DNA from: an uncultured Elusimicrobiales bacterium
Lineage (GTDB): Bacteria > Elusimicrobiota > Elusimicrobia > Elusimicrobiales > Elusimicrobiaceae
NCBI GenBank assembly: GCA_944324695.1
Contig: CALUXH010000064.1
Coordinates: forward strand, 1 to 44,214
Reading direction: 5' to 3'
DNA length: 44,214 nucleotides
Of the stretch, positions 2,867 through 28,160 are shown one piece after another. Within the stretch, counting starts at the first letter, position 1; each line of letters opens with the position of its first letter. The notes under the pieces were generated by a model. It saw nothing but the letters and a program-made list of their open reading frames with translations. It searched no databases and was not told the origin of the DNA. The position numbers and the translations under genes are program-made.

Positions 2867-2885
2867 ACGGGAATGATACGACATT

Positions 2886-3620: not shown

Positions 3621-3630
3621 ATAACATTTT

Positions 3631-5928: not shown

Positions 5929-5937
5929 GAGCAAGCC

Positions 5938-7563: not shown

Positions 7564-7567
7564 GCTT

Positions 7568-8455
7568 ATGAGCGGCGGGCTTTCCATAGTATTGTTTATT
7601 TTATTGGGCATCGGCAGTATTTCTGTATTTGTCACGGTGCTGACTTTGCTTTCTCCCAAAGGAGAGCAGACGCAAATCGTGGACGTTTCCGCGCGCCGGT
7701 TTAAATCTTCCTCCAGCTTTGCCAGATTACAGCCGGAAACAAAGTGGACGGACCGTCTGGCGGTATTTGTGCTTAATTCTTTCCATCTGGAACGCCCTTT
7801 GGAGCAAATGCATATGCAGCTGGGCAGCCCCGATATGCCGCAGCCGGTGGATATATTGTATTATAAAATTATCTTTGCCTTTGTAGTCCCTGCCGGCGGG
7901 ATGTTGCTGTTCCACAGCATTTGGGCCGTCGTGTTGGTGCCGGTGGGCTTTTATTTGCCGGATATTATATTGAAAAGCCGTATCCAGAAAAGACAGGCTG
8001 AGATTTTGGGCAATTTTTCCAGCACGGTGGATTTGGCGGCCTTGATTATTGAGTCCGGTTTGGACTATTTGACGGCATTTGAAAGAATTATTAACATCGC
8101 CAAGAAGAAGACCGTTTTGGAGGAAGAACTGGAAAAAACCCTGAATGAAATTAAACTGGGTTATTCCCGCCGTGAGGCATTGGAGCGGTTTGCCAACCGT
8201 ACCGGCGTGCAGGAAGTGCGTTCGTTGGTCGGATTGATTATTCAGTCGGATGAGCTGGGTACCAGCCTGGTGGATTTGCTGCGTAATTTTTCTTCCGATT
8301 TGCGCAGCCGGCGCATGAGCCGGGCCGAAAAGCTGGCCGCACAGGCATCCACCAAGATGCTGTTCCCGTTGTTTATTTTCATATTCCCGACGATTTTTAT
8401 TTTAATTCTGTCGCCCATGATTAAAGGCCTGCTTTCGCAGGGGCTGAGCTTTTGA
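7568..8455 (+). CDS. tadC: TadC-like inner-membrane platform protein
   Basis: This 295-residue protein has an N-terminal membrane segment, a short cytoplasmic linker, two central membrane segments (about residues 98-135) and a T2SSF domain with LGNFSSTVDLAALIIESGLDYLTAFERI and the second half-motif RREALERFANRTGVQEVRSLVGLIIQSDELGTSL. A last membrane hairpin closes it. TadB and TadC together form the Tad inner-membrane platform. Length and layout match the family. It follows tadB closely and is translated from an ATG preceded by a GAGGTAAAGG stretch inside the end of tadB. Confidence 0.9.
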   Translation: MSGGLSIVLFILLGIGSISVFVTVLTLLSPKGEQTQIVDVSARRFKSSSSFARLQPETKWTDRLAVFVLNSFHLERPLEQMHMQLGSPDMPQPVDILYYKIIFAFVVPAGGMLLFHSIWAVVLVPVGFYLPDIILKSRIQKRQAEILGNFSSTVDLAALIIESGLDYLTAFERIINIAKKKTVLEEELEKTLNEIKLGYSRREALERFANRTGVQEVRSLVGLIIQSDELGTSLVDLLRNFSSDLRSRRMSRAEKLAAQASTKMLFPLFIFIFPTIFILILSPMIKGLLSQGLSF

Positions 8456-12319: not shown

Positions 12320-14221
12320 ATGGAAGCGGGGTTTGTGGTGAAAAAACATACGGGCACTTTGTTTTCCAGAGCGGTCTGGGCTTTATCCGTAGTGTCTGCC
12401 GTGCCGGTGTTGCTCATCGGCTGGCATGTGCTGCGTGTGGACGGCCGCGTGCTGCAAAACGAAATGTTGGACCGCCAGCGTACTGTCGCCGTGCAAATAG
12501 CTTCCATTATATCCGAAGAAGTCAGCCAAAAAGTGCAGTTTTTTTCTACGTTTATGGATTTGCACAGCGATTTTGGCGGACACCCTTTTGTTAATAAAGA
12601 AGATATTGACTATTTGCGGGAAAAAAATCCGGCCATCACCCATATTTCCATACTGAATTCAAAGGGTCGTTTGTTGTTTTATTCCGGAGACGACGGCGGG
12701 CGCTTCAGTTATGTTTCTGAGCTGGACAGCATTTTGCGCGCCTGTGTACAAAGCGGAAAGGAATATATCGGTTCCGTTAACCGGGACAGCAACCATTTGT
12801 ATGTTTTAATGGCATTCCCCGTGCGGGAGCATCGTGCGGACGCCCGGGTGTCCGGCGTATTGGTGGCGGAAATGGATTTGGGCGGTTTGGGCCTGGCCTT
12901 GGAAAAGAATTATCCGAAAGATATGTTTGTGGCCGTAGTCAGCCCCGACGACAATTTGATTTCTTATTCCGGTGTTCCGGGAGGATTGGTTCTAACGCCT
13001 GATGACTCTCTGCGTGTTGATCTTTTCCAATGGGGAAAGGAACTAGACGGCCGCAGCGGCGCCCATATCAAGACTGTGCAGGGAAAAGGGGTTTTAGTCA
13101 GCCGCGCTGAAGTGCCGGTTTTGGACTGGGCCGTATATGTAGAGCAGCCTGCGGATATGCTGCGGCGGCTGTTTTGGGCAAGCACGATTCATTCGCTGTG
13201 GGACATTGCCGCTATTTTGTTGGTTATGATCGCTTTTGTGTTGCTGGTCTCCTATTTGGTTATTATTCCGATTATCCGCCCCGTGCAGCGTTTGCAGGAG
13301 GCCGCCGTCAAGCTGGAAAGGGAAGACGATTATATGCCTACGGAAAAAGACCTGATTATTCCGGACAATGAAATCGGTGAGCTGGCGCGGGTGTTTTTGC
13401 ATATGGCGGCCGTATTACTGGAGCGGAAAAATGCCATTTGGGCCGCACAAAAAGAATTAGCCGTTATGAACCGGGAACTGGAACAACGCGTACAGCTTCG
13501 TACGGAGGAATTAAAAAACGCTACGGAAGAACTGGTCAAGTCCGAGCGTTTGGCCGCCATTGGGCAAATGGCTTCCATCATCAGCCATGAAATCCGCAAC
13601 CCGCTGGCGGTTATCAGCAATGCCACACGTCTGATTAAGACCATTGTTCCCCCGTCTAACCCTAAGCTGATTAAACAGTTTTCCATTATTGAATCGGAAA
13701 TCCGCCAGGCCAACAGCATCATCAGCGAAGTGCTGGGCTTTGCCCGCAGTCGGGAAATGATATTGAGCGTTATTGATTTAAACAGTTACTTGCATGACAT
13801 TATTCAGTCGTTTCCTGCGCCGGCGGGCATCCGCCTGCGTGAAGAGTTGGACCCCGAGAGCGCCCGTCTGAAAGTGGACGCCGAAGAGATAAAGCAAGCC
13901 TTGCGCAATTTGATATCTAATGCCTGCGAGGCCATGCAGGGCCGGGGCACCGTGACGGTAGGCAGCCGCGTGGGCAAGACGGCGGTGTGTATTTATGTGG
14001 CTGATGAAGGGCCCGGGATTTCCGCCGAACTGAGAGAAAAAATCTTTTCTCCTTTTTTCACCACCAAAGCCCGCGGTACGGGGCTGGGGTTGGCTGTAGT
14101 GCGCAAAACTCTCAGCCGTCACAAAGGCAAACTGTTTATATCCAGCGAAGAAGGAAAAGGGGCCGTTTTTGCGCTTTATTTGCGGATTTATCATAAAACC
14201 GGAGATACAAGTTATGAATGA
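12320..14221 (+). CDS. Membrane sensor histidine kinase with Cache and HAMP domains
   Basis: This 633-residue protein has two membrane helices (about residues 18-35 and 290-315) that flank an extracytoplasmic double-Cache-like sensor. A HAMP domain (IIRPVQRLQEAAVKLE) and a coiled coil (about 370-410) follow. The HisKA domain has IISHEIRNPL with phospho-acceptor His423, and the HATPase domain has N-box NLISNACEAM, G1 DEGPGIS, F-box FFTTKA and G2 GTGLGLAV. It is a NtrB/AtoS-style orthodox kinase. The start is uncertain: ATG 12320 has no ribosome site, and GTG 12338 is an alternative. The stop overlaps the next gene by eight bases (ATGAATGA), so the two are translationally coupled. No promoter is obvious upstream. 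Confidence 0.9.
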   Translation: MEAGFVVKKHTGTLFSRAVWALSVVSAVPVLLIGWHVLRVDGRVLQNEMLDRQRTVAVQIASIISEEVSQKVQFFSTFMDLHSDFGGHPFVNKEDIDYLREKNPAITHISILNSKGRLLFYSGDDGGRFSYVSELDSILRACVQSGKEYIGSVNRDSNHLYVLMAFPVREHRADARVSGVLVAEMDLGGLGLALEKNYPKDMFVAVVSPDDNLISYSGVPGGLVLTPDDSLRVDLFQWGKELDGRSGAHIKTVQGKGVLVSRAEVPVLDWAVYVEQPADMLRRLFWASTIHSLWDIAAILLVMIAFVLLVSYLVIIPIIRPVQRLQEAAVKLEREDDYMPTEKDLIIPDNEIGELARVFLHMAAVLLERKNAIWAAQKELAVMNRELEQRVQLRTEELKNATEELVKSERLAAIGQMASIISHEIRNPLAVISNATRLIKTIVPPSNPKLIKQFSIIESEIRQANSIISEVLGFARSREMILSVIDLNSYLHDIIQSFPAPAGIRLREELDPESARLKVDAEEIKQALRNLISNACEAMQGRGTVTVGSRVGKTAVCIYVADEGPGISAELREKIFSPFFTTKARGTGLGLAVVRKTLSRHKGKLFISSEEGKGAVFALYLRIYHKTGDTSYE

Positions 14222-15335
14222 ACAGGTAAAAATTTTAGTGGTGGACGATGATGCCAATCTGCGGGAAACCTTGGCCGATTTGCTGGAAATAGAAGGCTAT
14301 AAAGTATATCAGGCCGGAGACGGGAAAGAATGCCTGGATTTGGTGTCTTCGGAATTTTTTAACGTTATTTTGATGGACTATAATTTGCCCGGGGAATCCG
14401 GACTGGATTTAATTCGTAAGATTCGCGCTTTTAACCAGGACAGCCAAATTCTGATGATTACGGCGTATGCTTCGCTGAATTCTATTATGGAAGCTATGAA
14501 GGAATCGGTGTATGATTTCCTGATTAAACCGGTGGATTTCGATTACCTCAAGCGCACCATTAACCGGGCGTTGGACAAATATTTCCTGGAACGCAGCAAT
14601 AAAGAATTATTGGCCCAGCTGAAAGCGCAGAATGCGGATTTGGACCGTCTTAATAATATGAAGTCCAAGTTCTTTTCCATCGTGTCCCACGATTTGTCCA
14701 ACTCGCTGATGACGCTGAAGATGAGTTTTGACATGCTGAAAAAGAAAATGACGCCCGACCCGGATCAGGCCAAAAAAATTTCATATATGGATGAGTCTTT
14801 GGATCAAATAGAACACCTGATTAAAGACCTGGTGGACTGGGCTGCTATTGAAAAGGGCAAGCTGCGTATTGAAAAAGCCAACTTTGAATTGACTGCCAGC
14901 CTGAAAAAAACCGCCGAGATTTTTAAAGATAAAGCGGCCAAGCGCGGCATTGCCCTGTCTTTTGAAAGCGTGGGGGAAATACCCGTATTTGCCGACGAGA
15001 AACGCATCCGCCAGGTCATCTCCAATATTTTGGAAAATGCCGTGCGGCATACGCCGGACGGCGGGCGCATCGGGGTAACCGTCAGCAAACTGGATGAAAA
15101 AAATGCTAAAGTGTCGGTATCGGACTCCGGGGACGGCATTGACCCGGAAGTGGCCCCTTCGCTGTTTACCAGCTTTACGCAGGTGGGAGATAAAAACCGC
15201 GTGGGTCGGCTGGGGCTGGGGCTGTCCATCGCCAAGGATATTGTAAACAACCACGGCGGACGGATTTGGGCGCACAGCCAGGGGTTGGGGCATGGCGCGT
15301 CTTTCAATTTTACTCTGCCGATAGGCAGCCATTAA
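14214..15335 (+). CDS. Receiver-histidine kinase hybrid (soluble)
   Basis: The protein is 373 residues from the ATG at 14214, inside the end of the kinase gene; an upstream in-frame start lies within that gene and is unlikely. An N-terminal receiver domain carries VVDDDA and phospho-acceptor Asp55 (ILMDYNLPG) with the ITAYAS and LIKPVD switch motifs. A short coiled linker is followed by HisKA with VSHDLSNSL (His159) and a HATPase domain with NILENAVRHTPDGG, DSGDGID and GLGLSIA. There is no membrane segment, so it is cytoplasmic. It can be phosphorylated by the upstream kinase and can itself phosphorylate another regulator, plausibly the LuxR-type one encoded next. Confidence 0.9.
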   Translation: MNEQVKILVVDDDANLRETLADLLEIEGYKVYQAGDGKECLDLVSSEFFNVILMDYNLPGESGLDLIRKIRAFNQDSQILMITAYASLNSIMEAMKESVYDFLIKPVDFDYLKRTINRALDKYFLERSNKELLAQLKAQNADLDRLNNMKSKFFSIVSHDLSNSLMTLKMSFDMLKKKMTPDPDQAKKISYMDESLDQIEHLIKDLVDWAAIEKGKLRIEKANFELTASLKKTAEIFKDKAAKRGIALSFESVGEIPVFADEKRIRQVISNILENAVRHTPDGGRIGVTVSKLDEKNAKVSVSDSGDGIDPEVAPSLFTSFTQVGDKNRVGRLGLGLSIAKDIVNNHGGRIWAHSQGLGHGASFNFTLPIGSH

Positions 15336-15363
15336 TTTGACGCAACACTGGAGCGAAAAACAC

Positions 15364-16044
15364 ATGAATAAAAAGAAAAAAGTCAGAGTGCTTATTGCAG
15401 ATGACCAGACGCTTTTTCGCGAGGGCATCAAAGACGTGCTGACCGGCGAAAAGTGGATCGAAGTCGTCGGGGAAGCTGCCGACGGTCTGGAGGCCGTGGC
15501 TCTGTCCAAAAAATTAAAACCCGACGTGGTGCTTATGGACATTAAACTGCCCAAATTGGACGGTATTTCCGCCACCCGGCAAATTCGTGCGGCTGCGCCG
15601 GAAGTCAATGTGCTGATGCTGTCCTCTTTTGAAGACGAAGCCCACGTGCTGGATGCCATCCAGGCGGGCGCCAACGGGTATTTGTCCAAAATGCTTCCGG
15701 CGGCGGAGTTGGTCAATTCCATTAAAACTTTCACGGCCGAAGGGTTAATGATTCCCCAGCAGCTTATGGGCAAGCTGTTGCACGGGCTGCGCCGTATGGG
15801 AGACGGCGGCCTGCCTACCCAGGCTACGCTGACCAAGACGGAAATAAAAGTCATGGACTATTTGGGCAAAGGCCTGAGCAATAAAGAGCTGGCCAAAGAG
15901 CTGGGCTGCAGTGTCAAAACGATTAAAAATCATTTGAACAGCGCCTTCCATAAACTGGGCGTCAGCAGCCGTACCGAAGCCGTGGTAAAGGCCATTGAAA
16001 AAGGTCTGATCTCCTCGGAGGGGACCAAGTTTGAGGATGAATGA
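15364..16044 (+). CDS. NarL/LuxR-family response regulator
   Basis: The protein is 226 residues from the ATG at 15364, preceded by GGAG; a TTG at 15337 is less likely. The receiver domain has IADDQ and Asp59 (VLMDIKLP), followed by SSFEDE and the Lys in GYLSKML. The C-terminal LuxR-type helix-turn-helix has LTKTEIKVMDYLGKGLSNKELAKELG and then SVKTIKNHL. It binds DNA as a dimer when phosphorylated. It sits between two sensor kinases and pseudopilin genes, and its stop overlaps the next Flp-like gene by eight bases (ATGAATGA). It therefore probably regulates the pilus or the downstream surface-protein cluster; no binding site could be defined. Confidence 0.9.
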   Translation: MNKKKKVRVLIADDQTLFREGIKDVLTGEKWIEVVGEAADGLEAVALSKKLKPDVVLMDIKLPKLDGISATRQIRAAAPEVNVLMLSSFEDEAHVLDAIQAGANGYLSKMLPAAELVNSIKTFTAEGLMIPQQLMGKLLHGLRRMGDGGLPTQATLTKTEIKVMDYLGKGLSNKELAKELGCSVKTIKNHLNSAFHKLGVSSRTEAVVKAIEKGLISSEGTKFEDE

Positions 16045-16226: not shown

Positions 16227-17330
16227 ATGTGGGGTATGGGAAAAAGTATATTGTCCGGCCGACGGGCGCAGGTATTGCTGCCCGCGGTCATGCTCGCCCC
16301 TATTTTCATGCTGCTCATTTATCTGTTGTTTGAAACGGCCAAATTGTCCATGAGCAAAGTGCGTGAGCAGTTCGCGCTGGACAATGCCGCCTATTCCCAA
16401 ATGTCCAGCACCAGCGCGTATTTAAATGCGTTGGCGCAGGTAAACGGCGTGTTGCCCTATCGTGTGATGAAAACCATGAGCCAGGAACTGCTGGCCAAGC
16501 AAACGGCAGAGGACGATGAAGAAGTGACCGTTTTTGACGTATTTTATAAGGCGGGGGCCTTTCCGGCCGCAGGGCCCAGCCATGACATCGGCCCCAACGG
16601 CGCGGTGAATAACCCCCGGCCCGAACCGGAATCCAACAACTGGAATTTCCAGTATTACAAAGGCAAACGCGCCAACTGGGCCAAAGAGGACCCGCAGGAC
16701 GATTTTGACGAAGAGGAAAAATACGTTTTAACGGATAAAGATATTGCGGACAATTACTTTTTCGGATCCTCCGGTCTCGGCCTGGCCGCCATTAAAGAGT
16801 ACGCCACCACTTTGATCCGCACAGGGTCTATTTACGCTTCCCAGACTTACGTGTATAATGACCTGGTGAAAAACGCGCGCATGTTCCGGCAGGCTTATTT
16901 TTTAAACGTGCGTAATTGCCGCGAGTCCACCTGTGCCCGCCAGTCCGCAGCCGTTATGGAGCGTTATTCGGTGGAAAGCAAGCCGTTTGAAATCAATGAG
17001 ACGCGTTATTACGTATCGGCGGATTATCAGGGCGCCACCATGCATTCTGGCGCTTATCCCATTGATTTGAAAATGGAGGAGATTCTGGGGGCCAAGCTCT
17101 TCCAGTTTGCATATTTGACTCCCCAGAGCCGCAGCATTTTGCGCAAGCTGGAGCGCGGCGTTACGCTGAAGCAAAAATATACGCTGCCTTCCAACAGCTT
17201 TAATATTAACCTGACGCAGCGTTATAACCCGTATGTGCGCAATACGGTATATATGTCTTGCCCCCGCTCCGGCAACAACTGCGTCTGGCCCAACCCTATT
17301 TCCAAATACAGCACGAGGATAGGACCGTGA
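16227..17330 (+). CDS. TadG-like pseudopilin-class protein with atypical leader
   Basis: This 367-residue protein has a short leader with GRRAQ, then a hydrophobic helix (LLPAVMLAPIFMLLIYLLFE) and a long exported domain. The shape matches TadG-like tip or minor proteins of Tad systems. The usual prepilin Glu at +5 is missing (the sequence after the Arg-Ala site is QVLLPA), so it may stay membrane-anchored. The exported region is acidic in the middle (about residues 90-175) and has a few Cys (a CRESTC pair near 230 and two near the end). ATG 16227 and ATG 16236 are both possible. The stop overlaps the next start by one base (TGATG). Confidence 0.55.
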   Translation: MWGMGKSILSGRRAQVLLPAVMLAPIFMLLIYLLFETAKLSMSKVREQFALDNAAYSQMSSTSAYLNALAQVNGVLPYRVMKTMSQELLAKQTAEDDEEVTVFDVFYKAGAFPAAGPSHDIGPNGAVNNPRPEPESNNWNFQYYKGKRANWAKEDPQDDFDEEEKYVLTDKDIADNYFFGSSGLGLAAIKEYATTLIRTGSIYASQTYVYNDLVKNARMFRQAYFLNVRNCRESTCARQSAAVMERYSVESKPFEINETRYYVSADYQGATMHSGAYPIDLKMEEILGAKLFQFAYLTPQSRSILRKLERGVTLKQKYTLPSNSFNINLTQRYNPYVRNTVYMSCPRSGNNCVWPNPISKYSTRIGP

Positions 17331-17863
17331 TGAAACTCAATCGCTTATTTGTTGGCCGCCGGGGCCAGGCCACCACGGAAACGGTGCTTTTGTTTCCCGT
17401 GCTGATTATTTTTATGCTGTTTATTATTAAAATTTTTGGTCTGTTGGTGCTCAGCCAAAAGGTGGAAATCGCCGGTTTTTACGCGGCGCGCCGCTACCAG
17501 CTGCAAAGCCATATGACCGATTCCCTGCAGCGCTGGGACAGGCGTTTTTTGGAGAAAGACATTAAGAAAAAGGTGGAAGAGTACCTGGGTTTTAATAATG
17601 CCGGCATGCGGCGGTTTTTGAGTTTGAAAAGTTTTGATTTGGATATCAACACTTCCGGTACATGGCACCGGGTGGTGCTGACGGTGCGCACCCGTGCGCC
17701 GCATATTAAATTTTTGTGCGATTACGACAAACAAGAGCTGTGTCAAAATGAAATGACCTGCTATAAAGGGTTTGAGTTTTTGTGTGAAACGGGCGGCCAA
17801 ATACAGGTTATTAAATACATCGGCCCCAACGAGCGCGTGCTGCCGTGGATGCGCCCGGATTAA
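17330..17863 (+). CDS. TadE-like pseudopilin of the second set
   Basis: The protein is 177 residues from the ATG at 17330, which overlaps the stop of the preceding gene; the open frame extends upstream inside that gene. A basic leader ends at G-QATTET, with Glu at +5, followed by a hydrophobic helix (VLLFPVLIIFMLFIIKIFGLLVLS) and a TadE-like AGFYAARRYQ stretch. The exported part is basic and ends with four Cys in a compact block (LCDYDKQELC, MTCYKGFEFLC). It closes the signalling and pseudopilin operon. Confidence 0.75.
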   Translation: MKLNRLFVGRRGQATTETVLLFPVLIIFMLFIIKIFGLLVLSQKVEIAGFYAARRYQLQSHMTDSLQRWDRRFLEKDIKKKVEEYLGFNNAGMRRFLSLKSFDLDINTSGTWHRVVLTVRTRAPHIKFLCDYDKQELCQNEMTCYKGFEFLCETGGQIQVIKYIGPNERVLPWMRPD

Positions 17864-17868
17864 ACCCC

Positions 17869-17897
17869 TTGACAAAAGGGCCGCAGCCGTTTATACT
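17869..17897 (+). promoter_or_regulatory. Sigma-70 promoter of the 18009-28079 surface-protein cluster
   Basis: A perfect TTGACA (17869-17874) and TATACT (17892-17897) are separated by exactly 17 bases. The expected start is near 17904, leaving a leader of about 100 bases before the ATG at 18009. Confidence 0.85.
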
Positions 17898-18008: not shown

Positions 18009-19598
18009 ATGTTTAACCTTTTTAATAAATCCAAGGTTCGCACCGGGAAGCAAACCGTTTCCGCCGGTCAAAAGCCCGCCGCGGGCCAGCCGTCCGGGGC
18101 CAAAAAGCAGGCCCCGTTTGCCGCTTTGGGCAAAACCTGGGCCAAGCTTAATAAAATGGACCGAAAGCAGGCCTATACGTGGGGCTCCATTGCCGTAGTG
18201 GCGCTGCTGGCCCTGATTACGTTTGTTTCCGCCATGGGGGGCAACGAGGAAGATTTTTCCGGCTTTGAAACCCGCGGTTATGACCTGGCCAACATGCCTT
18301 TCTCTTCCGACGAAGCGGAACAATACCTTTTAGCGACCAAATATCCGGATATGCAAAACAGCACGCTTCCGCCGGGCCTGTATTCCAGCGCGGAGAAAGA
18401 GGCCCGCCAGGAGGAAGACGCGCAGGCGGCTGAGCAAGAGCAGCAGTCCTGGGAGGCGGAAGAGGATTCTTCTTCCGACTATGTGCCCGGGCGGTATTAC
18501 GGCGGCGGCGGTGGCGGCGGCAGGCAGCGTGCGCCTACGCAGGTGGGCGCGCTGAACAGCGCCAGCCTGAAAAGTGCCGGCGGATCCGGCATCAGCGGCA
18601 CCTTTGGCCCCACGGGGGATTTTTCCAATTTCCGCAGTCAGGAAAAGGGCAGCGACGTGTTTGTGCCGCAGCAGGGCTCTGCGGGTAATGCCCGTAAAGC
18701 GCTGTTTACCAGCGCCATGGGCAGCCGCGCGGCCGCCGGCCAGCTGGACAATCGCCTGGCCAATGCCAAAAAAGCCATGCTGGGCAATGTGCAGGGCAGC
18801 GCCGCTTTTATGAATGACAGCGGCGCGGTGGACCTTTCCAAGGCCGCCGGCCTGAACCTGGACCCGAACGCTCCCGTCAGCTCGGCCGATCCCAACGCGT
18901 TTAACGACGCGCTGGACGCCGCCCATGACGATGCGGGGAATGATGCGGCGGATCAGGATGAAGCCGAATGGTGGCAAACCATGTTGCAGGATTTGGCAAA
19001 GCAACTGGTCCAAGGGGTTCTGTCTATGGGCTTGAATGCCACACAAGGAGCGATAGATCAGGCCGTGGCGGCACGAAATGCGGGCGCAGCCGCATATCAG
19101 GAGTACATAGCGAATTCGCCCAACTATCCTCCAACAACAGTCAAGGGGGTCGTTCCTACTGACCAATTGGGTGATTTAAAGCCGAGTGTTTTGGACCAAA
19201 TGGGATTAGAATACAACGCAGACAAAACACTGTTAATGAAGGGGGATACTGTCGTAGCTAGAGCTTCTGTTAAAGATGGGGGTACTAGTTGGGACTATGA
19301 AGATGGACAAACGATTAAAATAGGCAACTGGGATGTAAAACAGATTGCAAAAAAAGATGAGAAGTGGTATGCGGAAAACTACCCACGGGAATATACCCAG
19401 GCAAAAGCCTATGCAAAACAGGCTGGATATAATGCCAGAAATAAAGTACCCCCCAGCAGAAAAGACTTTAGTGGAGGGCAAAGTAATAATCTTCCTAACC
19501 CAGCGTATGTAGCAGTAGGTACCACACAGACTGTGAACGGTCAAACATGGCGGCTTCAGGAACAAAACGGGACGAAAGAGTGGGTACTAGCTAACTAG
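18009..19598 (+). CDS. Membrane-anchored Gly/Ala-rich exported protein A with low-GC C-terminal tail; unknown family
   Basis: This 529-residue protein fits no family I recognise. A basic cytoplasmic start (NLFNKSKVRTGK) is followed by one membrane helix at about 56-77 and an acidic Gln/Glu stretch (about 125-155). A Gly tract lies near 165-171, and a Gly/Ser/Ala-rich region contains SGTFGP, a motif shared with the protein at 21106. A charged block ends at EWWQTM (about 320-325). The remaining roughly 200 residues are different: polar, Tyr/Lys-rich and low in Gly, and encoded with A/T-ending codons (12 of 40 codons G/C-ending at 19203-19322, against 21 of 26 at 18720-18797). The membrane helix predicts that most of the protein is exported. 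It is first in its operon, behind a strong promoter. Function unknown. Confidence 0.8.
   Translation: MFNLFNKSKVRTGKQTVSAGQKPAAGQPSGAKKQAPFAALGKTWAKLNKMDRKQAYTWGSIAVVALLALITFVSAMGGNEEDFSGFETRGYDLANMPFSSDEAEQYLLATKYPDMQNSTLPPGLYSSAEKEARQEEDAQAAEQEQQSWEAEEDSSSDYVPGRYYGGGGGGGRQRAPTQVGALNSASLKSAGGSGISGTFGPTGDFSNFRSQEKGSDVFVPQQGSAGNARKALFTSAMGSRAAAGQLDNRLANAKKAMLGNVQGSAAFMNDSGAVDLSKAAGLNLDPNAPVSSADPNAFNDALDAAHDDAGNDAADQDEAEWWQTMLQDLAKQLVQGVLSMGLNATQGAIDQAVAARNAGAAAYQEYIANSPNYPPTTVKGVVPTDQLGDLKPSVLDQMGLEYNADKTLLMKGDTVVARASVKDGGTSWDYEDGQTIKIGNWDVKQIAKKDEKWYAENYPREYTQAKAYAKQAGYNARNKVPPSRKDFSGGQSNNLPNPAYVAVGTTQTVNGQTWRLQEQNGTKEWVLAN
18501..18521 (+). repeat. GGC-type triplet tract encoding poly-Gly
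   Basis: A run of GGC/GGT triplets encodes seven Gly in protein A. Such tracts can change length by slippage in whole codons, giving a flexible linker of variable length. Confidence 0.7.
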
Positions 19599-19610
19599 CA
19601 GGAGTAAATT

Positions 19611-21083
19611 ATGAAACTTATAAATTTATTTAAAAGAAAGACAGGCAAGCTGGCCCTTTCCCCCATGCAGGCGGTGGGTCTGGCCGCCGTGGTGGGCGTG
19701 GCGGGCATCGGCGCGTACCGCATGATGGGCTCGTCCGAACAGCCGGATTTGAATACGGTGTTTTCTTCCGGCGGGCAGGATGTGGTGTATGTGTCCGGTG
19801 CGTCCGGCGGCAGCTACGGCGGGGTGGTGTACGGCAGCGGCGGCGCTTATTCCGGCGGCGGGGAAATACAGTCCGGCATTCATACCACTTTGTCCAAAGA
19901 TTTACAGCTGATGCAGGCCGATGCCGCGCGTGCCGATGCGTCGCAGCCGCAGTACGTCCAGCAGGAAGAGGAAATAACCGCTTATAAACTGGACGGGAAC
20001 AGCGGCGGTCTGGGCATGGGTACCACGCTGGACCGGGAGAAAGCTTCTGTGGATATGGGCGGCAGTATGCAGGCCGTGCAGAGCCAAATAGCGGCTTTGC
20101 AGGCTTCAGTGGCGCAGCAACAGGAGGCCGCGGCGCAGCAGGCTGCGGCGGCACAAGGCGGGGACGCGGCTGCGGCCGCGGCGGCCGCTTTGCAGGGCGG
20201 TGGCAGGAACTGGGGGCAAATGGCCTCCGGCATGGCCCGTGCGTCGGGCAGTAATTTGAAATCTACGCCGCTCCAAGCTTCCCGGCACGAAGGGCAGACC
20301 GTCAGCGCTTCGGGCGTTTTGGGCGGCGGTGCGGCGGGCGTGCCGCCCGCATCCGGCGCTTTGGCCAACGGGGTGACGGGTATAGCCGGGGACCGGCGTT
20401 CTTTTTCACGCGCCGGGGATTATATCGGCATGGCGGACTCGCTGGAAGAGCTGCAGCGGATCTCCGGCAAGACGGCCGCCTCTTCCCACAACTCTACCGT
20501 GGCGACGGCCCGGGGCTTTTTGTCTTCGTCGCATTTGGCCGGCGGTATCTTCTTGGAAGGCAACGAAACGCTCAGCACCGGCGTGGGCAGCTCGGCGGAT
20601 TTCAGCGCCAACAATTCTTTGAGCGGCCTGGGCGGCGCCATGGGGGGTATCGAAGAAGAAACCACCAGCTATGCCGAGGATTTAAGAACGTTGCATAAGA
20701 AACTTAAACATATGGCGAACAAGACAATGGTTTGTTCATTCTTGCCCATTGGTGTTAACCGTGCGTGTGCGCGCGGGCCTTACAAAAACGTGGAAGGTGA
20801 TATAGACAAATTTAAAGCCAAGTGGAGTGAGACTCCTTATGAAAAGGAAAATGCGGACGGCCCCGTAGCCGACCGCGTACTGAGGTTGGCCAAGAATATT
20901 CGTGATACTGCGTGGGTACCTGTTTTGCCTAAAATACGTTATAATCAGAACGTCGGCGATATTTTTAACGCCAATGCGTCCGAAAATCTTGACAACGATG
21001 CTGTGGATTACAATACAAACGACGTAACCAGTCCATACGGCTCTTCTGCTGCAGATGACAGTCTGGATTTGAACGCACAGTAA
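19611..21083 (+). CDS. Membrane-anchored Gly/Ala/Gln-rich exported protein B with low-GC C-terminal tail; unknown family
   Basis: This 490-residue protein has the N-terminus NLFKRKTGKL, close to that of proteins A and C, and a membrane helix at about 17-38. Gly/Ser/Tyr-rich repeats follow, then an Ala/Gln-rich predicted helix with an eight-Ala run (about 155-195) and ARASGSNL (near 210). A block (LEELQRISGKTAASSHN to FLSSSHLAGGIFLEG, about 280-320) aligns with a block in protein C. From about 20690 the sequence becomes low in GC: hand count 38 percent at 20701-20760 against 77 percent at 20281-20340. It encodes a Lys/Asn-rich tail with one Cys pair (MVCSF, RACARG). The end, ADDSLDLN, resembles the end of protein C. 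Function unknown. Confidence 0.8.
   Translation: MKLINLFKRKTGKLALSPMQAVGLAAVVGVAGIGAYRMMGSSEQPDLNTVFSSGGQDVVYVSGASGGSYGGVVYGSGGAYSGGGEIQSGIHTTLSKDLQLMQADAARADASQPQYVQQEEEITAYKLDGNSGGLGMGTTLDREKASVDMGGSMQAVQSQIAALQASVAQQQEAAAQQAAAAQGGDAAAAAAAALQGGGRNWGQMASGMARASGSNLKSTPLQASRHEGQTVSASGVLGGGAAGVPPASGALANGVTGIAGDRRSFSRAGDYIGMADSLEELQRISGKTAASSHNSTVATARGFLSSSHLAGGIFLEGNETLSTGVGSSADFSANNSLSGLGGAMGGIEEETTSYAEDLRTLHKKLKHMANKTMVCSFLPIGVNRACARGPYKNVEGDIDKFKAKWSETPYEKENADGPVADRVLRLAKNIRDTAWVPVLPKIRYNQNVGDIFNANASENLDNDAVDYNTNDVTSPYGSSAADDSLDLNAQ
20235..20257 (+). repeat. Dispersed direct repeat, copy 1 (ARASGSNL coding block)
   Basis: These 23 bases match 21628-21650 at 21 positions. They encode the shared ARASGSN(L) motif of proteins B and C and indicate common ancestry or gene conversion. 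Confidence 0.7.
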
Positions 21084-21105
21084 GGCCCCGTGCCGCGGAG
21101 GGATT

Positions 21106-22581
21106 ATGAAAAACATATTTTCTTTTTTCAAAAGCCGTAAAGGCAAAATAAACGTCGGCGGCCTGCTGGGCGTAGCCGCCACGGCCGGCCTGGCCGGCAT
21201 GACGATGATGAGCTACGTCAACGCCAGCCCCGAACGTATGGAAAATGACGTGCTGCGCCGGATGTCGGAAATCCGGGACGGGGCGGGCTCACTGACCTTT
21301 GACGGCATACAAATCAGCACCGGCGGGCTGCAATTTGCCTCTCCGGAAGAGATTGCCGCGCAGGAAGGGCGGATTTTTGACGGCGGGGATACGGCCGCGG
21401 CGGCGATGGAAAACTTTTCCCTCCAGGGGCGCAACCTGGGCCAGACGGACGGACTGGGTATGGGGGCCAATGCCGCGGTGGAGTTGGGCCCTGACGGCAG
21501 ACCTCTGCCTGGGCAGGGCGGAAGAGCGGACGGATCTGCCATTGGCGCGGCGGCCGCGGCGGCCAACCAAACCCAAATTAATAAACTGGGGGCGGCGCCG
21601 CAGGGGGGGCTGCAGCGCGCCACCATTGCCCGGGCGTCCGGCAGTAATTTAGGTTCTTCCTCCGGCGGAGGTACGTTCGGTCCGTCTTCTTCCGCCGCTT
21701 CCTCCGGCCGCAGGAGCGGTTCTTCCTCCGGCGGGGCGGGCTATAACTTTACCGGCGCCATGCCCACGGGCAGCAGCGCGCTGCTGGCCTCGGCCGACAT
21801 GAGCGGCATCCGCGGCGTCAGCGGGGCCAGGTTTACGCCCGGCGGGCGGGACAGCCGCATCGGCAGCGGTTCGTCTTCCGAAGCGGGGAATAATTTGCGC
21901 GATATTGCCCGTCAGTCCTCCAAAGTGGCGGCAAACGCCCAAAAGAGCACCAGCTCCGGCGCCGGCCCGTTTTTGGCCGCCAGCAAAATGGCCGGCGGCG
22001 TGCAGGTGCAGGATGGGGATACAGTGACGCTGACGGACGGCACCCCGGCCGAATTTGAAGAAGAAATGAACAACCGGGAGCGCAACCTCGGCAGCAGTAT
22101 AGACGATTTGGATAACACCGAAAACGAGAAAAAGGAACACAGACAGCGGCTTTGGCAAACTATGGCCGGATTGCTGGGGGCTACCATGTTGGGCATGATG
22201 ACTATCGCCGCACTGAAAAAAAGTTTTCCGTGGGGATATGCCGCGGCGATTGTATTGGCGCTTGGTTTATTGGTGTGTATTGCCGCATTTATGACGGATA
22301 TTGGAAAGTTTGGAGTCAAATATGGAAACTGGGGGCTTTGTTCTTTCTTTTTCGCTATGGGTGCGGCCATGGCTGCAGGGGTGGCCCTTGCATTCTGCAG
22401 TATTAAATTCACTGGGTGGCTTAACGGAGTGATAGAGGCATTAAAGAGCAATTGGGCCTATATGACTGGTTTTTCATTACTTTCAAGCGGTCTTGTGGGG
22501 CAGGCGTATTCTGCTGTTCCCTCTACTTTTAAAGAAGCTTGGGGTAAGGGCAGCGGCGACGACAGCCTGAAGAATGACTGA
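21106..22581 (+). CDS. Membrane-anchored Gly/Ser-rich exported protein C with four-helix membrane tail; unknown family
   Basis: This 491-residue protein has the N-terminus FFKSRKGK and a membrane helix at about 17-37, like protein B. A Gly/Ala/Ser-rich region carries IARASGSNL and GTFGP. The block NNLRDIARQSSKVAANAQ to FLAASKMAGGVQVQDG (about 265-305) aligns with protein B. A charged stretch ends at LWQTM (about 348-352), echoing EWWQTM in protein A. From there the protein is hydrophobic with about four predicted membrane helices to residue 470. GC falls from 67 percent (21841-21900) to 42 percent (22441-22500) by hand count. The last residues (KGSGDDSLKND) are GC-rich again. A membrane-embedded tail on an exported stalk is unusual. 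Function unknown. Confidence 0.8.
   Translation: MKNIFSFFKSRKGKINVGGLLGVAATAGLAGMTMMSYVNASPERMENDVLRRMSEIRDGAGSLTFDGIQISTGGLQFASPEEIAAQEGRIFDGGDTAAAAMENFSLQGRNLGQTDGLGMGANAAVELGPDGRPLPGQGGRADGSAIGAAAAAANQTQINKLGAAPQGGLQRATIARASGSNLGSSSGGGTFGPSSSAASSGRRSGSSSGGAGYNFTGAMPTGSSALLASADMSGIRGVSGARFTPGGRDSRIGSGSSSEAGNNLRDIARQSSKVAANAQKSTSSGAGPFLAASKMAGGVQVQDGDTVTLTDGTPAEFEEEMNNRERNLGSSIDDLDNTENEKKEHRQRLWQTMAGLLGATMLGMMTIAALKKSFPWGYAAAIVLALGLLVCIAAFMTDIGKFGVKYGNWGLCSFFFAMGAAMAAGVALAFCSIKFTGWLNGVIEALKSNWAYMTGFSLLSSGLVGQAYSAVPSTFKEAWGKGSGDDSLKND
21628..21650 (+). repeat. Dispersed direct repeat, copy 2 (ARASGSNL coding block)
   Basis: Partner of 20235-20257, with 21 of 23 bases identical and the same reading frame, encoding the ARASGSN(L) motif in protein C. 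Confidence 0.7.
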
Positions 22582-22589
22582 GGTGCACT

Positions 22590-22859
22590 ATGGCAAAAGC
22601 AGACGGCAAAATGAAACGGTTTTTTATCGGGGCTTTGATATGGCTGGGCCTGTTGTCTTATATCGCGCTGTACTGGTACGCCGCCGCCGAACATAAGCAG
22701 GCCCGCCGGGAACTGGTGGATTTAAAGGCCCGCCAGCGGCTGGTGCAGGAACGGCGCGACAATGCCGCCCGCTGGGAGCGGGAAATGAAGGAGCAGCGTT
22801 TGCTGCGCCAGTACAACCGGGGCCGCGTCATCGGCGCGGACGGCAGAACCCTGAACTAA
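22590..22859 (+). CDS. Small membrane protein with coiled coil (protein D)
   Basis: This 89-residue protein has a short basic start, one membrane helix (about residues 10-30) and a long, highly charged helix rich in Arg, Glu and Gln (about 33-75) that looks like a coiled coil, ending in GADGRTLN. The layout resembles FtsB/FtsL-like bitopic proteins, but no family-specific motif is seen. A GAGGTG ribosome site precedes the ATG, eight bases after protein C. Its base composition matches the conserved parts of the cluster, not the low-GC tails. It could be an assembly partner for the anchored proteins. Confidence 0.65.
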   Translation: MAKADGKMKRFFIGALIWLGLLSYIALYWYAAAEHKQARRELVDLKARQRLVQERRDNAARWEREMKEQRLLRQYNRGRVIGADGRTLN

Positions 22860-22911
22860 CCCCGGCACAGGGGGCGGGCGGCCCGTCCCCCGAACAAAAG
22901 AGGATGCGGTT

Positions 22912-24375
22912 ATGGAACGCAAACCGGCGGATGTCAGACAAGGACAAAGGGTCTTTTCCCCCATGCCGAGGGGAAATGCCCCTGCGCGTGTTCCGCCGCC
23001 CCGGCGCCGCCTGCGGCTCATTATGTGGCTGGCACTTGCATTTTTCCTCTTTTCCGTTATATTTATAATACCGGTGGGACGCGTGCCGCTGTTGCGCAAC
23101 ATTGCCTGGCTGATGGGTTTTAGCCGGGAGGCAACGGGTTCCATCAGCTTTGGCCGCGCGCTTTTGACGTGGGTAAGCGATGAAAACGGACGCACCTTTG
23201 CCGGCAGCTGGGACGGCTTGGCCGTCCGGGACAATGAAACGTCCCTGTTTAATTTGGCGCAGCGGCCGGATTTTAACCCGTCCGGCCCCGTTTCGGCCCT
23301 GTTTGATATCCGGCGGGTGAACGCCGCCCGCCGCGCACGGGGCCTTGGGCCGGAGGGCTTGGCCTCAGCGTACGCCGCCGGTGAGGAAGAAGACGCCTCC
23401 CGGGCCGTATCCGGTCCGGATGCGCAGGCCGCCCGCAGCGTTACGGAGAGCGGAGCCAGCAAAGAATATTATTTTGGTACGGACGCCGAACTGGCCGCCC
23501 GTGCGGCGGCGCAGGATCGCCCCGGCAGAGGGTCGGCCGATACGGCGAAACTGCTGCCTTCCGGGACGGGAGTGTCCGGTGCGGCGGGGACGGATTGGCT
23601 GGCTATGGCCACGGACAAGGCTTTCTTGTTGGAAAACAGCCAGCTGGATGCCGGATTGCAGGACGCGGCCGGAGGGACCGTGACATTAAGCAATATTGCC
23701 GGCACCGTGACCGCGGGGCAAAAGCCGAAGCGGGATCTGGCCAATATATGGCTGATGTCCAAAGCGGCGGACAAGGCCAAATACCTGATGCTTAAAAAGC
23801 AGCTGGCCGCGGCGGGGTATTTGGCCATGTCCGTGCCTAAGAAAGTGTATGATTCCTCCGGGCAGGGGGCCGGGGTGCGGCTGGACGGCAATGAAATGCT
23901 GGCCCTGGCTGAGGAAACCAACCAGCAGCTGCTCGATGAAGAGCAGTGCCGCAATATCGCCGTCGGAGCCAACAACACCCTGCTGGACAAAAGCCGGCAG
24001 GCCGATGCGTATATATCCGCTTTGCGCAACGTACCCAAACGCTGCGGCGACGATATGACGGGCTGGAGCCAGAATTTGCGCGCGGTCAAAACAAATTGCC
24101 AGGAAGTAAAAGAAGTGTATGAAAATATGCAGACGTTTTGCGGGACGAAAGTGGTGTCCGGATCCGGCACATGCGACGCTTCCCGGCTGGACAGCTATGA
24201 AAGTTCGTATAATGAAATTTGCGCGGGATATGATATGCTGACCGATGAGGAAAAAGCCGAGCGGGATGCACAGCTGGACGCCGTATCCGCTTATGTGGAG
24301 GAAGACGTGCTTGACACTTTTAACACCTCGGGCAGCGGCGCCAGCAATAAGTTTTTCCCCGAAAGCGAGCTCTAG
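22912..24375 (+). CDS. Membrane-anchored exported protein E with six Cys; unknown family
   Basis: This 487-residue protein has a Pro/Arg-rich cytoplasmic start, a membrane helix at about 36-56 and then an exported region. A middle part rich in Ala, Gly and Glu (about 140-210) is followed by a predicted helical C-terminal half with six Cys between about residues 345 and 440, enough for three disulfides. Unlike A, B, C and F it has no marked GC drop at its end. It sits between protein D and the giant protein F, with an AAGAGG ribosome site. No family recognised; the signal-anchor topology groups it with its neighbours. Confidence 0.75.
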   Translation: MERKPADVRQGQRVFSPMPRGNAPARVPPPRRRLRLIMWLALAFFLFSVIFIIPVGRVPLLRNIAWLMGFSREATGSISFGRALLTWVSDENGRTFAGSWDGLAVRDNETSLFNLAQRPDFNPSGPVSALFDIRRVNAARRARGLGPEGLASAYAAGEEEDASRAVSGPDAQAARSVTESGASKEYYFGTDAELAARAAAQDRPGRGSADTAKLLPSGTGVSGAAGTDWLAMATDKAFLLENSQLDAGLQDAAGGTVTLSNIAGTVTAGQKPKRDLANIWLMSKAADKAKYLMLKKQLAAAGYLAMSVPKKVYDSSGQGAGVRLDGNEMLALAEETNQQLLDEEQCRNIAVGANNTLLDKSRQADAYISALRNVPKRCGDDMTGWSQNLRAVKTNCQEVKEVYENMQTFCGTKVVSGSGTCDASRLDSYESSYNEICAGYDMLTDEEKAERDAQLDAVSAYVEEDVLDTFNTSGSGASNKFFPESEL

Positions 24376-24450
24376 GGGGCAGATTTTGAGCCGTAAAAGC
24401 AGTAAGCAGTACCGGTTTTGACGTGCCCGGGCGGCCGTTAAAACCCATCC

Positions 24451-24475
24451 GCTCCGGCGTATAAGCCGCCGGGGC
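24451..24475 (+). promoter_or_regulatory. Stem-loop just upstream of the giant protein gene
   Basis: GCTCCGGCG pairs with CGCCGGGGC (nine pairs, one G-T) around a seven-base loop, ending 19 bases before the ATG at 24495 and next to its AGGAGG site. There is no T run, so it is not a terminator. It could modulate translation or protect the mRNA. Confidence 0.4.
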
Positions 24476-24494
24476 AGCAACATAGGAGGCTGTT

Positions 24495-27400
24495 ATGGCT
24501 GATAATAAAAAGGAAGCGTTTACGTTCAGCGATAAGATTAAAAACAGCAAGCCTGCTTTTAATCCGTTCGCCAGACGTGTTTCCTCCAAAATCGGCGCCA
24601 ACGGCAAACCGAAAAAGACGATATTTGAGCGTACCAAACGGGACGCGCCCTTTTTCATTGCCGCTTTGGCCGCCTTGCTGCTGTTGCCGTTTTTGTATAA
24701 ATACAGCGGCAGCATAGAGGAAACGGGTATTATTACTCCCGGTTCTGCCGATACGGTGTTTGACCCGTACCGGGACGGGATTGGCGGTGCATTTTTGGAT
24801 GACCCGGACGGCGCCATCGCCCAATATACGGGGCGTGACCCGCTGTCTTTAATACAGGGGTTTGGTTCGCCTGCGCCGGAGGATGATTTTTCCGGAGATA
24901 TTGTGGACTACCGCGTGCAGGACGGTTTGGACGACAATTATACCCCTGCGCGCCCTTCGGATTCTCCGCGTGCTTACGCCCCAGCGGCCACGCGCGCGGC
25001 TTTTCAGCGCCAGGCCACAAAAATCAATGAATTAGGCAGCGCCGGCCTGAACCTGCGCGGCGGAGCGGGAGTGCCGTTCCGTTTCGGCGGGGCCAGTTTA
25101 AAGCGGGCCGCCCAGGCCGATTCCGCCGGTGCGCCCAAACAGGGCACCAAGCCGGTGGCGTTGCAGCCGCTGCGCGCGGCGGACAGCCCGTCCCGTTCGT
25201 ATTTCGGCCAGCCCGGTGCGGCGCAGGCGCGCGCTTCGCGTGAAGCCATGGGCAAAACCAATGCGGCGCAGGCCGTGCGTGACGCCATGTTTAATCCCGC
25301 CCGGACCAGCGCCGGCGTAGGCGGTCTGGGTTCCGGCACGTTCGCCCCCGGCGGCGGCGCGGGACAGATAAACCATACGCTGGACTTCAAGGGCATTACT
25401 CCCTGGTGGTGGGACATGATGAAAGAGCGTTCCCAGGAAGCCTGGAGATGGAAATATTTCCTGTGGAGGAAAAACTTTACCGAAGCGCTGGTCAAGTCTC
25501 TGGGTGAGCTGGCGGGGTTGTTTGCCAAAAATATGGGCTGCTGTCTGCTTACGGGCAACCAGGACTGCGATATGGATACGTTCCTGGGCGCTTCGCCGGA
25601 AAACAGCACTGCGGACACCTGCTGCGGTATAAAAGCCAGTTCTTGGACGCCCGGCATGGTGGCGACTTATGGGGAGTTCGGAGAGGCAAGCTGTAAGGCC
25701 TTTAAGGAACAGGGCAAGACGGATAAAAATTTCCAATGTCCTGACGGCGGTTGGAAAGCCGGCCGCAAGTATACCAAGAAGCAAAACTTCTTCCAGGTGC
25801 GCGGGGCCTGCCTGGGCGCCGTCGGTTTGGGCAGTGATTACGGACAGGGAACGCCCAGCCTGAAGCTGGTGCCGGACGTGGGCGACTGCGTCGCGCTCAA
25901 CCGCACCCGGAACTACAGCGTAAAGCCGGAAGGCGAGGCGATGAAATGGCACATTTACCATTACCTCGTGACGCGCAATTACGTGCCCGTTACCCTGGAC
26001 GACGGAACGAAATACGTGAACTTGTGCGACCAGCAAACGCCGTATGAGATCAGCAAGAACCGCGCGGCGGCGCTGGCCATGATACAGAATGCCGACTCTG
26101 ACAGCTGGGACGATGCCCAGAAGATAGATAAGGAAATTGAAGCGTTGGAAAAGCAAATCAAGGGATATGCTGCTGACGATCCTAATAGAGCGAATCTGCA
26201 AAAAGCACTGAACCAGAGATACGCGGACCTTGAATTGCGCTTCAGCGAAGCCGTCAAGAAGGTAAAAGGCGATTCGCGCCACTTCAACAATCCGGTCAAT
26301 GAAGACTTCTCCGACGCGTGCGTGGTGTACGTGTCCGAAAGCAACACGCTTCATTGGGATACGGACGTACAGACGACTATGGTGAAACTGCTCTCCAAGC
26401 TGATTAAGCAGCGCGGTTTGGCGACGGACGATGTGCAGGTGGCCGAACTGGCGACGAAGGCGTTTAAGCAGATGGACTGGGCGTTTATAGAGTCTTTTGC
26501 GTCCAAATACGAACTGGCCTATAAACCGGATGATCTGCCCATGCCGTACTGGCAGTTCTTTGACTACTACCTGATGCGCCGCGGAGACAATAAAGTCATT
26601 GCCGACCGCAAGTTCCGTCAGGAAGGAATAGACAGCGTGCCCGGAGAGAGATGCTACTTTGACAACGCCGTCAAGTTCTACTGTGAAGATACGGAAGGAG
26701 AGGATACCGCCGCCAAAGCCGTGTTGAGCTTTACCGAGGCTTATCAGGGCGGAGGTGAGCAGAATGCTGCAGACGTATCCGTTACGGCGGCTTTTGCGCC
26801 GCTGGACGGTTCAGCGGGCGCTGTCAATGAACAGAAGGTCCGAGGGACCGAACAGTCAGACGGGTCTTTTGTGTATTCATATACGAATCCGAAATGGTTC
26901 TCGCAGGATCAGGTTCAGCAGAACGGTGCGGGCGAAAAAGCCGGCGTGGTAACCTGGAGGCTGTACCGCGGCGGTCAAGCCGTCAAGACCGTCAGCTGCG
27001 ATTACCATAATGAAGGGTCTGAGCCCATGGTGGAGACGGTTCAGCCGCCTCAGGTCGAGCCAAATCCTTCCGAGTTGCCGAGGAATAGAGATGTTACCAT
27101 GTTGGCTCAGCGTATTACGGATATCCCGAGCAATCCGTTTGTGCGCAATGTGCTGAGAGGAACGGAGAACCCCGTCGCACCGCAGGGACAGGCATGGATA
27201 AAACTGGACGATCTGAAAGAAAAGGAAAAAGATGAAACCAGACTTTCCCAAGCCTATGCCGGCAGCCAAGCCGCCAAAACATATGTAGAGAAGATAATAA
27301 AGGCCTATAACGAGCGTGTGACTCAGAATAGCTCTCCTGGTGGTACTGTTGTGGAAATGGTGCGGCCTCAGAATAATTATCCCCAAGTGCCGGAAGTGGT

Positions 27401-28079
27401 GGATGCTATGCGCGTAGCACAGGCTTTAGGGGAGACAACTGTACCTAAAAATGTCGTTTGCGATATGGCCCGCGGCATTGCCTTGCAAAGTGAAGACTAT
27501 ACCCCTGTCCAGACTCGAAAGGGAAGGCATGATGACAATACATTCGGTTCGTTTGCCATTTACATGGGTAATGGGTATATGTATCCACACCTGAATCAGC
27601 TCGAGAAGGGAGGAACCATGGTGCCTGATTATCGCTTCTACTGTTTGGAGAATGGAAGGTATCTTTGTACTCCCGATTATGAATGGGAAAATTACATTTG
27701 GAAACAAACAGGAAAACCGCAAGCTGTAACCCAGAGCCAGCTGGCAGCGGCTACGAAAGAGGGACGCTCCTTTACTGGAACCTATCCGCTGGCTGCTTTA
27801 GCCCAAGGTCCGTCTGGTTGTGCTCCTGGACGCGCGGAACAGTGCCGTGACGAATATGTCCAAAATAACTCTAAGGTTTTCGGCATTACGGAAGAGTGTG
27901 AGTTAGAGGGAGGTATGAAGATTGAAGACGCTTTAGCCTATGTGGAGATCGTGGCGAAGCGGAACGGTACTTCGTATAAACCCCAGGCTAGTAACAAGGA
28001 AAAAGGAGATTCCACGGATAAGCGCAATGTTCAACGCTATACCCCTGGCTCTGACATGGGGGTAACTGATCAATCATAA
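24495..28079 (+). CDS. Giant membrane-anchored Cys-rich exported protein F; unknown family
   Basis: This 1194-residue protein has a basic cytoplasmic start, a membrane helix at about 51-70 and an acidic segment. A Gly/Ala/Arg-rich region (about 150-300) contains GSGTFAPGG, similar to the GTFGP motif of A and C. An aromatic block with WWWDMMKERSQEAWRWKYFLWRK (two stretches at about 303-325) leads into a long region with about 20 Cys, all after residue 345, including two adjacent CC pairs. A coiled coil lies near 545-590. An immunoglobulin-like stretch near 735-840 leads to a Pro/Asn-rich and low-GC C-terminal part (43 percent at 27541-27600 against 70 percent at 25261-25320). The even number of Cys fits an extracytoplasmic disulfide-bonded fold. 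It ends the cluster ahead of strong hairpins. Function unknown. Confidence 0.8.
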   Translation: MADNKKEAFTFSDKIKNSKPAFNPFARRVSSKIGANGKPKKTIFERTKRDAPFFIAALAALLLLPFLYKYSGSIEETGIITPGSADTVFDPYRDGIGGAFLDDPDGAIAQYTGRDPLSLIQGFGSPAPEDDFSGDIVDYRVQDGLDDNYTPARPSDSPRAYAPAATRAAFQRQATKINELGSAGLNLRGGAGVPFRFGGASLKRAAQADSAGAPKQGTKPVALQPLRAADSPSRSYFGQPGAAQARASREAMGKTNAAQAVRDAMFNPARTSAGVGGLGSGTFAPGGGAGQINHTLDFKGITPWWWDMMKERSQEAWRWKYFLWRKNFTEALVKSLGELAGLFAKNMGCCLLTGNQDCDMDTFLGASPENSTADTCCGIKASSWTPGMVATYGEFGEASCKAFKEQGKTDKNFQCPDGGWKAGRKYTKKQNFFQVRGACLGAVGLGSDYGQGTPSLKLVPDVGDCVALNRTRNYSVKPEGEAMKWHIYHYLVTRNYVPVTLDDGTKYVNLCDQQTPYEISKNRAAALAMIQNADSDSWDDAQKIDKEIEALEKQIKGYAADDPNRANLQKALNQRYADLELRFSEAVKKVKGDSRHFNNPVNEDFSDACVVYVSESNTLHWDTDVQTTMVKLLSKLIKQRGLATDDVQVAELATKAFKQMDWAFIESFASKYELAYKPDDLPMPYWQFFDYYLMRRGDNKVIADRKFRQEGIDSVPGERCYFDNAVKFYCEDTEGEDTAAKAVLSFTEAYQGGGEQNAADVSVTAAFAPLDGSAGAVNEQKVRGTEQSDGSFVYSYTNPKWFSQDQVQQNGAGEKAGVVTWRLYRGGQAVKTVSCDYHNEGSEPMVETVQPPQVEPNPSELPRNRDVTMLAQRITDIPSNPFVRNVLRGTENPVAPQGQAWIKLDDLKEKEKDETRLSQAYAGSQAAKTYVEKIIKAYNERVTQNSSPGGTVVEMVRPQNNYPQVPEVVDAMRVAQALGETTVPKNVVCDMARGIALQSEDYTPVQTRKGRHDDNTFGSFAIYMGNGYMYPHLNQLEKGGTMVPDYRFYCLENGRYLCTPDYEWENYIWKQTGKPQAVTQSQLAAATKEGRSFTGTYPLAALAQGPSGCAPGRAEQCRDEYVQNNSKVFGITEECELEGGMKIEDALAYVEIVAKRNGTSYKPQASNKEKGDSTDKRNVQRYTPGSDMGVTDQS

Positions 28080-28091
28080 AGTAGTATTTAT

Positions 28092-28120
28092 CCCCGCCCT
28101 TTACAGGGCGGGGGTTCTTT
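28092..28120 (+). terminator. Terminator of the surface-protein cluster
   Basis: CCCCGCCCT pairs perfectly with AGGGCGGGG around TTAC and is followed by a T-rich stretch (TTCTTT). It starts 13 bases after the stop of the giant gene. Confidence 0.85.
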
Positions 28121-28133
28121 ACTTGTGAAAGCA

Positions 28134-28160
28134 ATCCCCCGGCATAGCCGGGGGATATTT
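28134..28160 (+). terminator. Second strong hairpin behind the cluster
   Basis: A perfect ten-pair stem (ATCCCCCGGC with GCCGGGGGAT) around a three-base loop is followed by ATTTATTG. Together with the previous hairpin it forms a tandem terminator; it may also act on transcripts coming from the minus strand. Confidence 0.7.

Follow-up and report, generated by a model that had tools for sequence, protein, structure and literature searches.

The stretch of DNA analysed (the window) is a 44,214-nucleotide contig of an uncultured Elusimicrobiales bacterium, a gut metagenome-assembled genome (MAG) of the family Elusimicrobiaceae that comprises 1.41 Mb and is 83% complete. Six co-directional open reading frames separated by short intergenic gaps, designated A to F, lie at positions 18009-28079. 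The comparison of related loci indicates that the C-terminal tails of A, B, C and F are replaced between species, and do not merely change fast, behind conserved stalks, whereas E was never seen exchanged and provided an internal control. We give an even chance to the explanation that A to F form an envelope complex specific to the class Elusimicrobia, with tails that are under diversifying selection and exchanged by homologous recombination. An initial annotation of the window had been prompted by the dissimilarity of the tails of A, B, C and F to one another, which is distinct from the exchange between species described here.

Exchange of tails between related loci

Nearly all genomes compared were MAGs, with one genome per species, and the close relatives by F stalk were gut MAGs labelled Elusimicrobiaceae, Elusimicrobiales, uncultured Elusimicrobium or Candidatus Avelusimicrobium. 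The DNA of the window and of locus L044 was 84-92% identical over 16 kb, with two alignment gaps that corresponded to the tail of A and the end of F. The identity was 92% up to position 19022; no alignment was obtained to 19592, followed by 84% to 27016, none to 28222, and 89% beyond. The stop codons of A and F are at 19598 and 28079, respectively. Coverage of tails and stalks was then compared over 110 locus pairs, in which the tails of A, B, C and F were replaced in differing combinations. Loci L064 and L101, for example, had common B and F tails and different A and C tails, and loci L095 and L101 had common B, C and F tails and a different A tail. In the 14 close pairs (TadE identity of at least 80%), the stalks were covered by 94-100% and E by 98-100%, compared to 26% for the tail of A, 50% for F, 73% for C and 79% for B, and tail coverage was mostly near 0 or near 1. 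The tail of A changed fastest, with 27 types in 33 loci.

Tail types were mapped onto a reference tree of TadE2, TadE3 and E, over which they were scattered. The B tails of L053 and L079, the two closest, were separated by a distance of 0.49, compared to 0.71 for their stalks, and the tree rejected a clade of these two loci (p = 2e-58). A group of four loci defined by the F tail (L047, L049, L051 and L079) was likewise rejected as a clade (p = 0.0016). The C protein of L062 had a stalk nearest to that of L049 (0.23) and a tail nearest to that of L053. Silent-site GC, calculated from fourfold codons only, was lower in the tails than in the stalks of A, B, C and F (p from 1e-4 to 1e-11) and was equal in the two halves of E (p = 0.74). 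The GC of the window's A was 0.46 in the tail and 0.61 in the stalk. The scattered tail types, the rejected clades, the tails that are closer than their stalks and the silent-site composition together argue for replacement rather than fast change alone. Conserved stalks with swapped tails, proposed in the initial annotation, were found across related genomes for A, B, C and F, and not for E; the contrary pattern, with tails conserved and co-linear with their stalks, was not observed for these four proteins.

No silent donor copies of B or C were detected in the 12 genomes searched for them, and, since these genomes held no extra copies, the donors of the tails were probably other cells. ComEC was present in all 21 genomes searched for it. 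A viral origin of the tails was rejected, as no relatives were found in IMG/VR. The tail of B was soluble in the clade of the window and mostly a membrane tail in other clades; the idea that the soluble tail is a free swap with C was rejected, since it was mostly confined to the clade of the window. The A tails (L058-L103) appeared mosaic, with short end modules (CPxGQTW..., SPNDFxTxTQYEDYVxGL and WWxxYGxxYGD...) recurring behind unrelated middle parts.

The position of the small protein D varied among loci, being after B, after C or after both. In the clade with D after B, the membrane half of D grouped with the B tails (partial correlation of 0.41, compared to -0.13 for the C tail), and in the clade of the window, with D after C, it grouped with the C tails (0.55; 0 of 2000 permutations). 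The second half of D tracked the stalks in both clades, and the exchanged stretch therefore seems to extend from the end of the stalk into D. The natural reading of this pattern would be that the membrane tail contacts D. A tandem duplication of the C-D pair was seen in one genome, G023 (L031, 11880-13627 of the reverse-complemented locus).

Distribution of the block and features of its proteins

F was present, usually as a single copy, in nearly every genome of the window's family. The gene order TadG-TadE-A-B-C-E-F was kept in the loci with enough sequence, and the order A-B-C-(D)-E-F was found throughout the window's genus. A homologous A-B-C-E-F block with the same order and membrane topology was found in three further families of the class, one of them the sister family; its C, E and F were linked to the window proteins through profile matches, and its A through position. 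The sister-family A protein has about 320 residues and is conserved end to end. The A stalk of the window's family is about as long (335 residues), so that the exchanged A tail seems to have been added in the gut family. In G083, a genome in a single contig (1,643,562 bases), F, A and E were located at 646, 711 and 773 kb, with TadA at 1303 kb; B and C were not detected.

The architecture proposed earlier for the large proteins (a basic N-terminus, one membrane helix and an exported part) was confirmed. A, B, E and F each carry a basic N-terminus with one N-terminal helix, the tail of C contains three to four extra helices, and 50-60% of the exported stalks consists of G, A, S, P, T and Q. The suspected relationship between B and C is that of true paralogues, with 26% identity over 144 amino acids (E = 6e-8) and cross-hits in relatives as well. 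Two shorter patterns of the initial annotation carry little weight. The motif GTF(G/A)P in A, C and F is unlikely to be random within the window (chance probability in each protein of 0.0005-0.004 by shuffling) and is not conserved in relatives (9 of 45 A, 2 of 41 C and 2 of 62 F proteins), and it was rejected as a common module. The N-terminal pattern of A, B and C is real in the window, but the first 40 residues of A are filled in only about half of its relatives.

No family was assigned to A to F by Pfam, NCBIfam or PADLOC, and the only match in PHROGs, a weak one with F (E = 9e-4), was to a family of unknown function. Sequence-profile searches of the PDB with E and F matched no solved structure. 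The AlphaFold model of F had a folded tail behind a disordered linker, with pLDDT above 90 in parts and a mean of 67, and a fold search with this tail gave weak immunoglobulin-like matches only (best E = 1e-4 at a TM score of 0.27). The model of E had a helical C-terminal domain; a fold search with E matched nothing. The six conserved cysteines of this domain of E are in keeping with an oxidising, exported location. The statement of the initial annotation that it recognised no family therefore still holds after family, PDB and fold searches. A weak match of the membrane region of C to the type VII secretion protein EccD (NCBIfam TIGR03920) was rejected at 23 bits against a curated cut-off of 95. 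Residues 1-72 of F (24495-24710), which form its cytoplasmic and membrane segment with the consensus KKDSFTFSDKIK...KPKKTLFERTKRDAPFF, were conserved far above the rest of F, and this extreme conservation suggests an unknown cytoplasmic partner.

Possible roles of the block

In the explanation that we favour, the products of A to F would presumably all belong to one cell-envelope complex, confined to the class Elusimicrobia. Each large subunit would be anchored in the inner membrane by a single helix, preceded by a short cytoplasmic segment and followed by a long flexible stalk on the exported side. A constant scaffold would be made up of the stalks and the whole of E, and the C-terminal tails of A, B, C and F would be variable modules touching something that differs between populations, such as a phage, a toxin from a rival, a partner cell or the surface of a host. 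Incoming DNA, probably taken up from relatives, would swap a tail by homologous recombination within two conserved flanks, namely the stalk and the gene that follows the tail, and the membrane half of D would move with the membrane tail upstream of it. Wholesale exchange of tails on constant anchors normally occurs where cells recognise, attack or evade something, and the combination of constant anchors and replaceable ends suggests that the ends meet a changing partner. Exchange in four proteins of one operon without known relatives, at a core locus, points to a biological conflict, and no description of such a conflict in this almost uncultured animal-gut phylum, nor any paper describing the A-F block, was found in the literature searched. 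The explanation predicts strain-level diversity of tails, pairing of membrane tails with D, and altered sensitivity upon tail replacement. More tentatively, an ancient envelope machine confined to Elusimicrobia and unrelated to known secretion or pilus systems may serve gut lineages as a multi-slot display, in which four subunits carry independently exchangeable tails, including inner-membrane bundles paired with a small partner.

Several points weigh against the envelope complex with exchanged tails. No structure or family match backs any particular function for A to F. The surface exposure of the B and C tails is doubtful, as they resemble inner-membrane helices, and the co-exchange of D may stem from adjacency alone and is no proof of contact. 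The stalk/tail borders were taken from the window alignment and are approximate, and the conflict expected for L074 with the L063 clade was suggestive and not significant (p = 0.33).

It is possible, though in our view unlikely, that A to F belong to the adjacent Tad pilus as accessory or tip subunits. Their tails would then be carried on the Tad machine or pass through it, and their variation would be that of adhesins or receptors. Like the minor pilins TadE, TadF and TadG, these proteins have a single N-terminal helix and an exported C-terminal part, and they share the Tad locus in Elusimicrobiaceae, where TadG/TadE-like genes lie directly upstream of A in 38 of the 38 loci from which such genes were recovered. 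Tad is universal in the order Elusimicrobiales. A peptidase A24 gene, relevant to the processing of prepilins, is present. The window's genome, despite a full tad set, gave no match to Flp/Fap pilin models; its major Tad pilin is either unrecognised or missing from the bin, and some Tad substrates may likewise have escaped recognition. However, the TadE model PF07811 matched only the genes at 1560 and 17330 and none of A to F. No TadE genes adjoin the A-B-C-E-F block in the order's next family or in further families of the class, and G083 has its A, E, F and TadA genes scattered over the genome. The constant linkage to tad genes that the initial annotation had envisaged does not hold, and the relation to Tad is therefore common and not required.

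A polymorphic toxin locus, in which the tails would be toxins and D an immunity protein, is improbable. In polymorphic toxins of the CdiA, Rhs and MafB types the N-terminal part is constant and the C-terminal part is replaced by recombination. The tails of A, B, C and F are replaced behind a constant front in the same way, and the exchange of the membrane half of D with the membrane tail before it would suit an immunity protein. The A-F proteins differ in their inner-membrane anchors and in the variation of four different proteins in one operon. No toxin domain was found in 45 A homologues (Pfam and NCBIfam) or in A to F (Pfam, NCBIfam, PHROGs and PADLOC). An immunity gene does not follow each variable tail: none lies after A, F or the B of the window, all of which are exchanged, nor after the exchanged C tail in the clade that has D behind B. 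In addition, D follows just B or C in most loci, and its second half is conserved. High polymorphism through recombination, expected of recognition proteins, was also found in the A-F tails. Myxobacterial TraA is a polymorphic identity protein (PMC6626042), and the polymorphic identity protein Mid/Msmeg0070 sits in the mycobacterial esx1 secretion locus (PMC9040860). The A-F proteins resemble both in their polymorphism and differ in that they match no family model and that several of them vary at once. By these comparisons, the locus behaves like polymorphic toxins and kin-recognition proteins and would belong neither to a toxin system nor to a Tad minor pilin set. As an evolutionary pattern, such exchange has precedents in polymorphic toxins and kin-recognition loci; the novelty concerns the block of genes and the exchange of tails in several slots.

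We think it still less probable that A to F are a competence-related envelope complex for DNA uptake, with tails that affect the DNA or the partner accepted. This would fit the location of comEC a few kb downstream of F in the sister-family genomes compared, but dnaX intervenes in the loci read, so that this may be an ordinary neighbourhood, and comEC is on another contig in the window's genome. Very improbable is the absence of any exchange, with unconstrained tails that diverge very fast. The tails have no known domains, and those of A are short and polar in many genomes, which would fit; the sharp all-or-none borders, the alleles common to separate lineages, the tails closer than stalks in some pairs, the rejected clades and the distinct silent-site composition argue against it. 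Chimeric assembly of the bins, conceivable because most loci are from MAGs, can hardly account for intact reading frames and identical border positions across several projects and animal hosts.

Layout of the locus and neighbouring genes

The six reading frames appear to be under their own promoter, judging from the promoter-like site that precedes A and the terminator-like hairpins that follow F (Table 1), in agreement with the single orientation and single promoter of the initial annotation.

Table 1. Features of the A-F block and its surroundings in the window
Feature	Position	Strand	Remarks
tad genes: TadE-like, CpaB/RcpC, short secretin, TadZ-TadA fusion ATPase, two T2SSF proteins	1560-8455	+	
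Histidine kinase and two response-regulator genes	12320-16044	+	Between tad and A-F
TadG-like (by position and size) and TadE-like genes	16227-17863	+	Directly upstream of A
Promoter-like site TTGACA-17-TATACT	17869-17897	+	Sigma-70-like, 11/12 consensus positions; pattern match only; between TadE gene and A
A	18009-19598	+	Open reading frame list
A conserved stalk	18009-19022	+	Cytoplasmic N-terminus, membrane helix aa 60-78, Gly/Ser/Ala-rich exported part; 100% DNA coverage vs L044
A exchanged tail	19023-19598	+	Unalignable with nearest relative L044 despite nearly identical stalk
B	19611-21083	+	Open reading frame list
B conserved stalk	19611-20657	+	Paralogue of C
B tail	20658-21083	+	Soluble in the window's clade; exchanged between species
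C	21106-22581	+	Open reading frame list
C conserved stalk	21106-22062	+	Alignment with relatives
C membrane tail, 3-4 helices	22063-22581	+	Exchanged between species
D	22590-22859	+	Small, one helix; second half coiled-coil-like
D membrane half, aa 1-39	22590-22706	+	Exchanged along with membrane tail directly upstream
E	22912-24375	+	One N-terminal helix, helical C-terminal domain, six conserved Cys; exchange never seen
F	24495-28079	+	Open reading frame list
F part common with L044	24495-27014	+	Near-invariant 70-aa cytoplasmic/membrane segment, disordered linker, PWWWDMMK motif, start of folded Cys-rich region
F exchanged tail vs L044	27015-28079	+	In other pairs exchange begins nearer aa 430-505
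Two strong terminator-like hairpins after F	28090-28156	+	Pattern match only

Among the tad genes, a TadZ-like MinD/ParA domain was fused to the TadA ATPase (3631-5928). The fusion was found in nearly every genome of the order, with an identity of 61-98% in the window's family where intact and about 55-60% in the sister family. The tad secretin (2886-3620) has just 244 amino acids, comprising a signal peptide and the secretin domain; the N-terminal domains that are usual in secretins seem to be missing. In the sister family (L135-L142 and L165-L170), comEC lay downstream of F, at a distance of a few kb, in those genomes in which the two genes were located; in G026, for example, F ends at C12:16259 and comEC starts at C12:20995. 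A conserved exported protein of about 285 amino acids and dnaX were encoded between F and comEC in the sister-family loci read.
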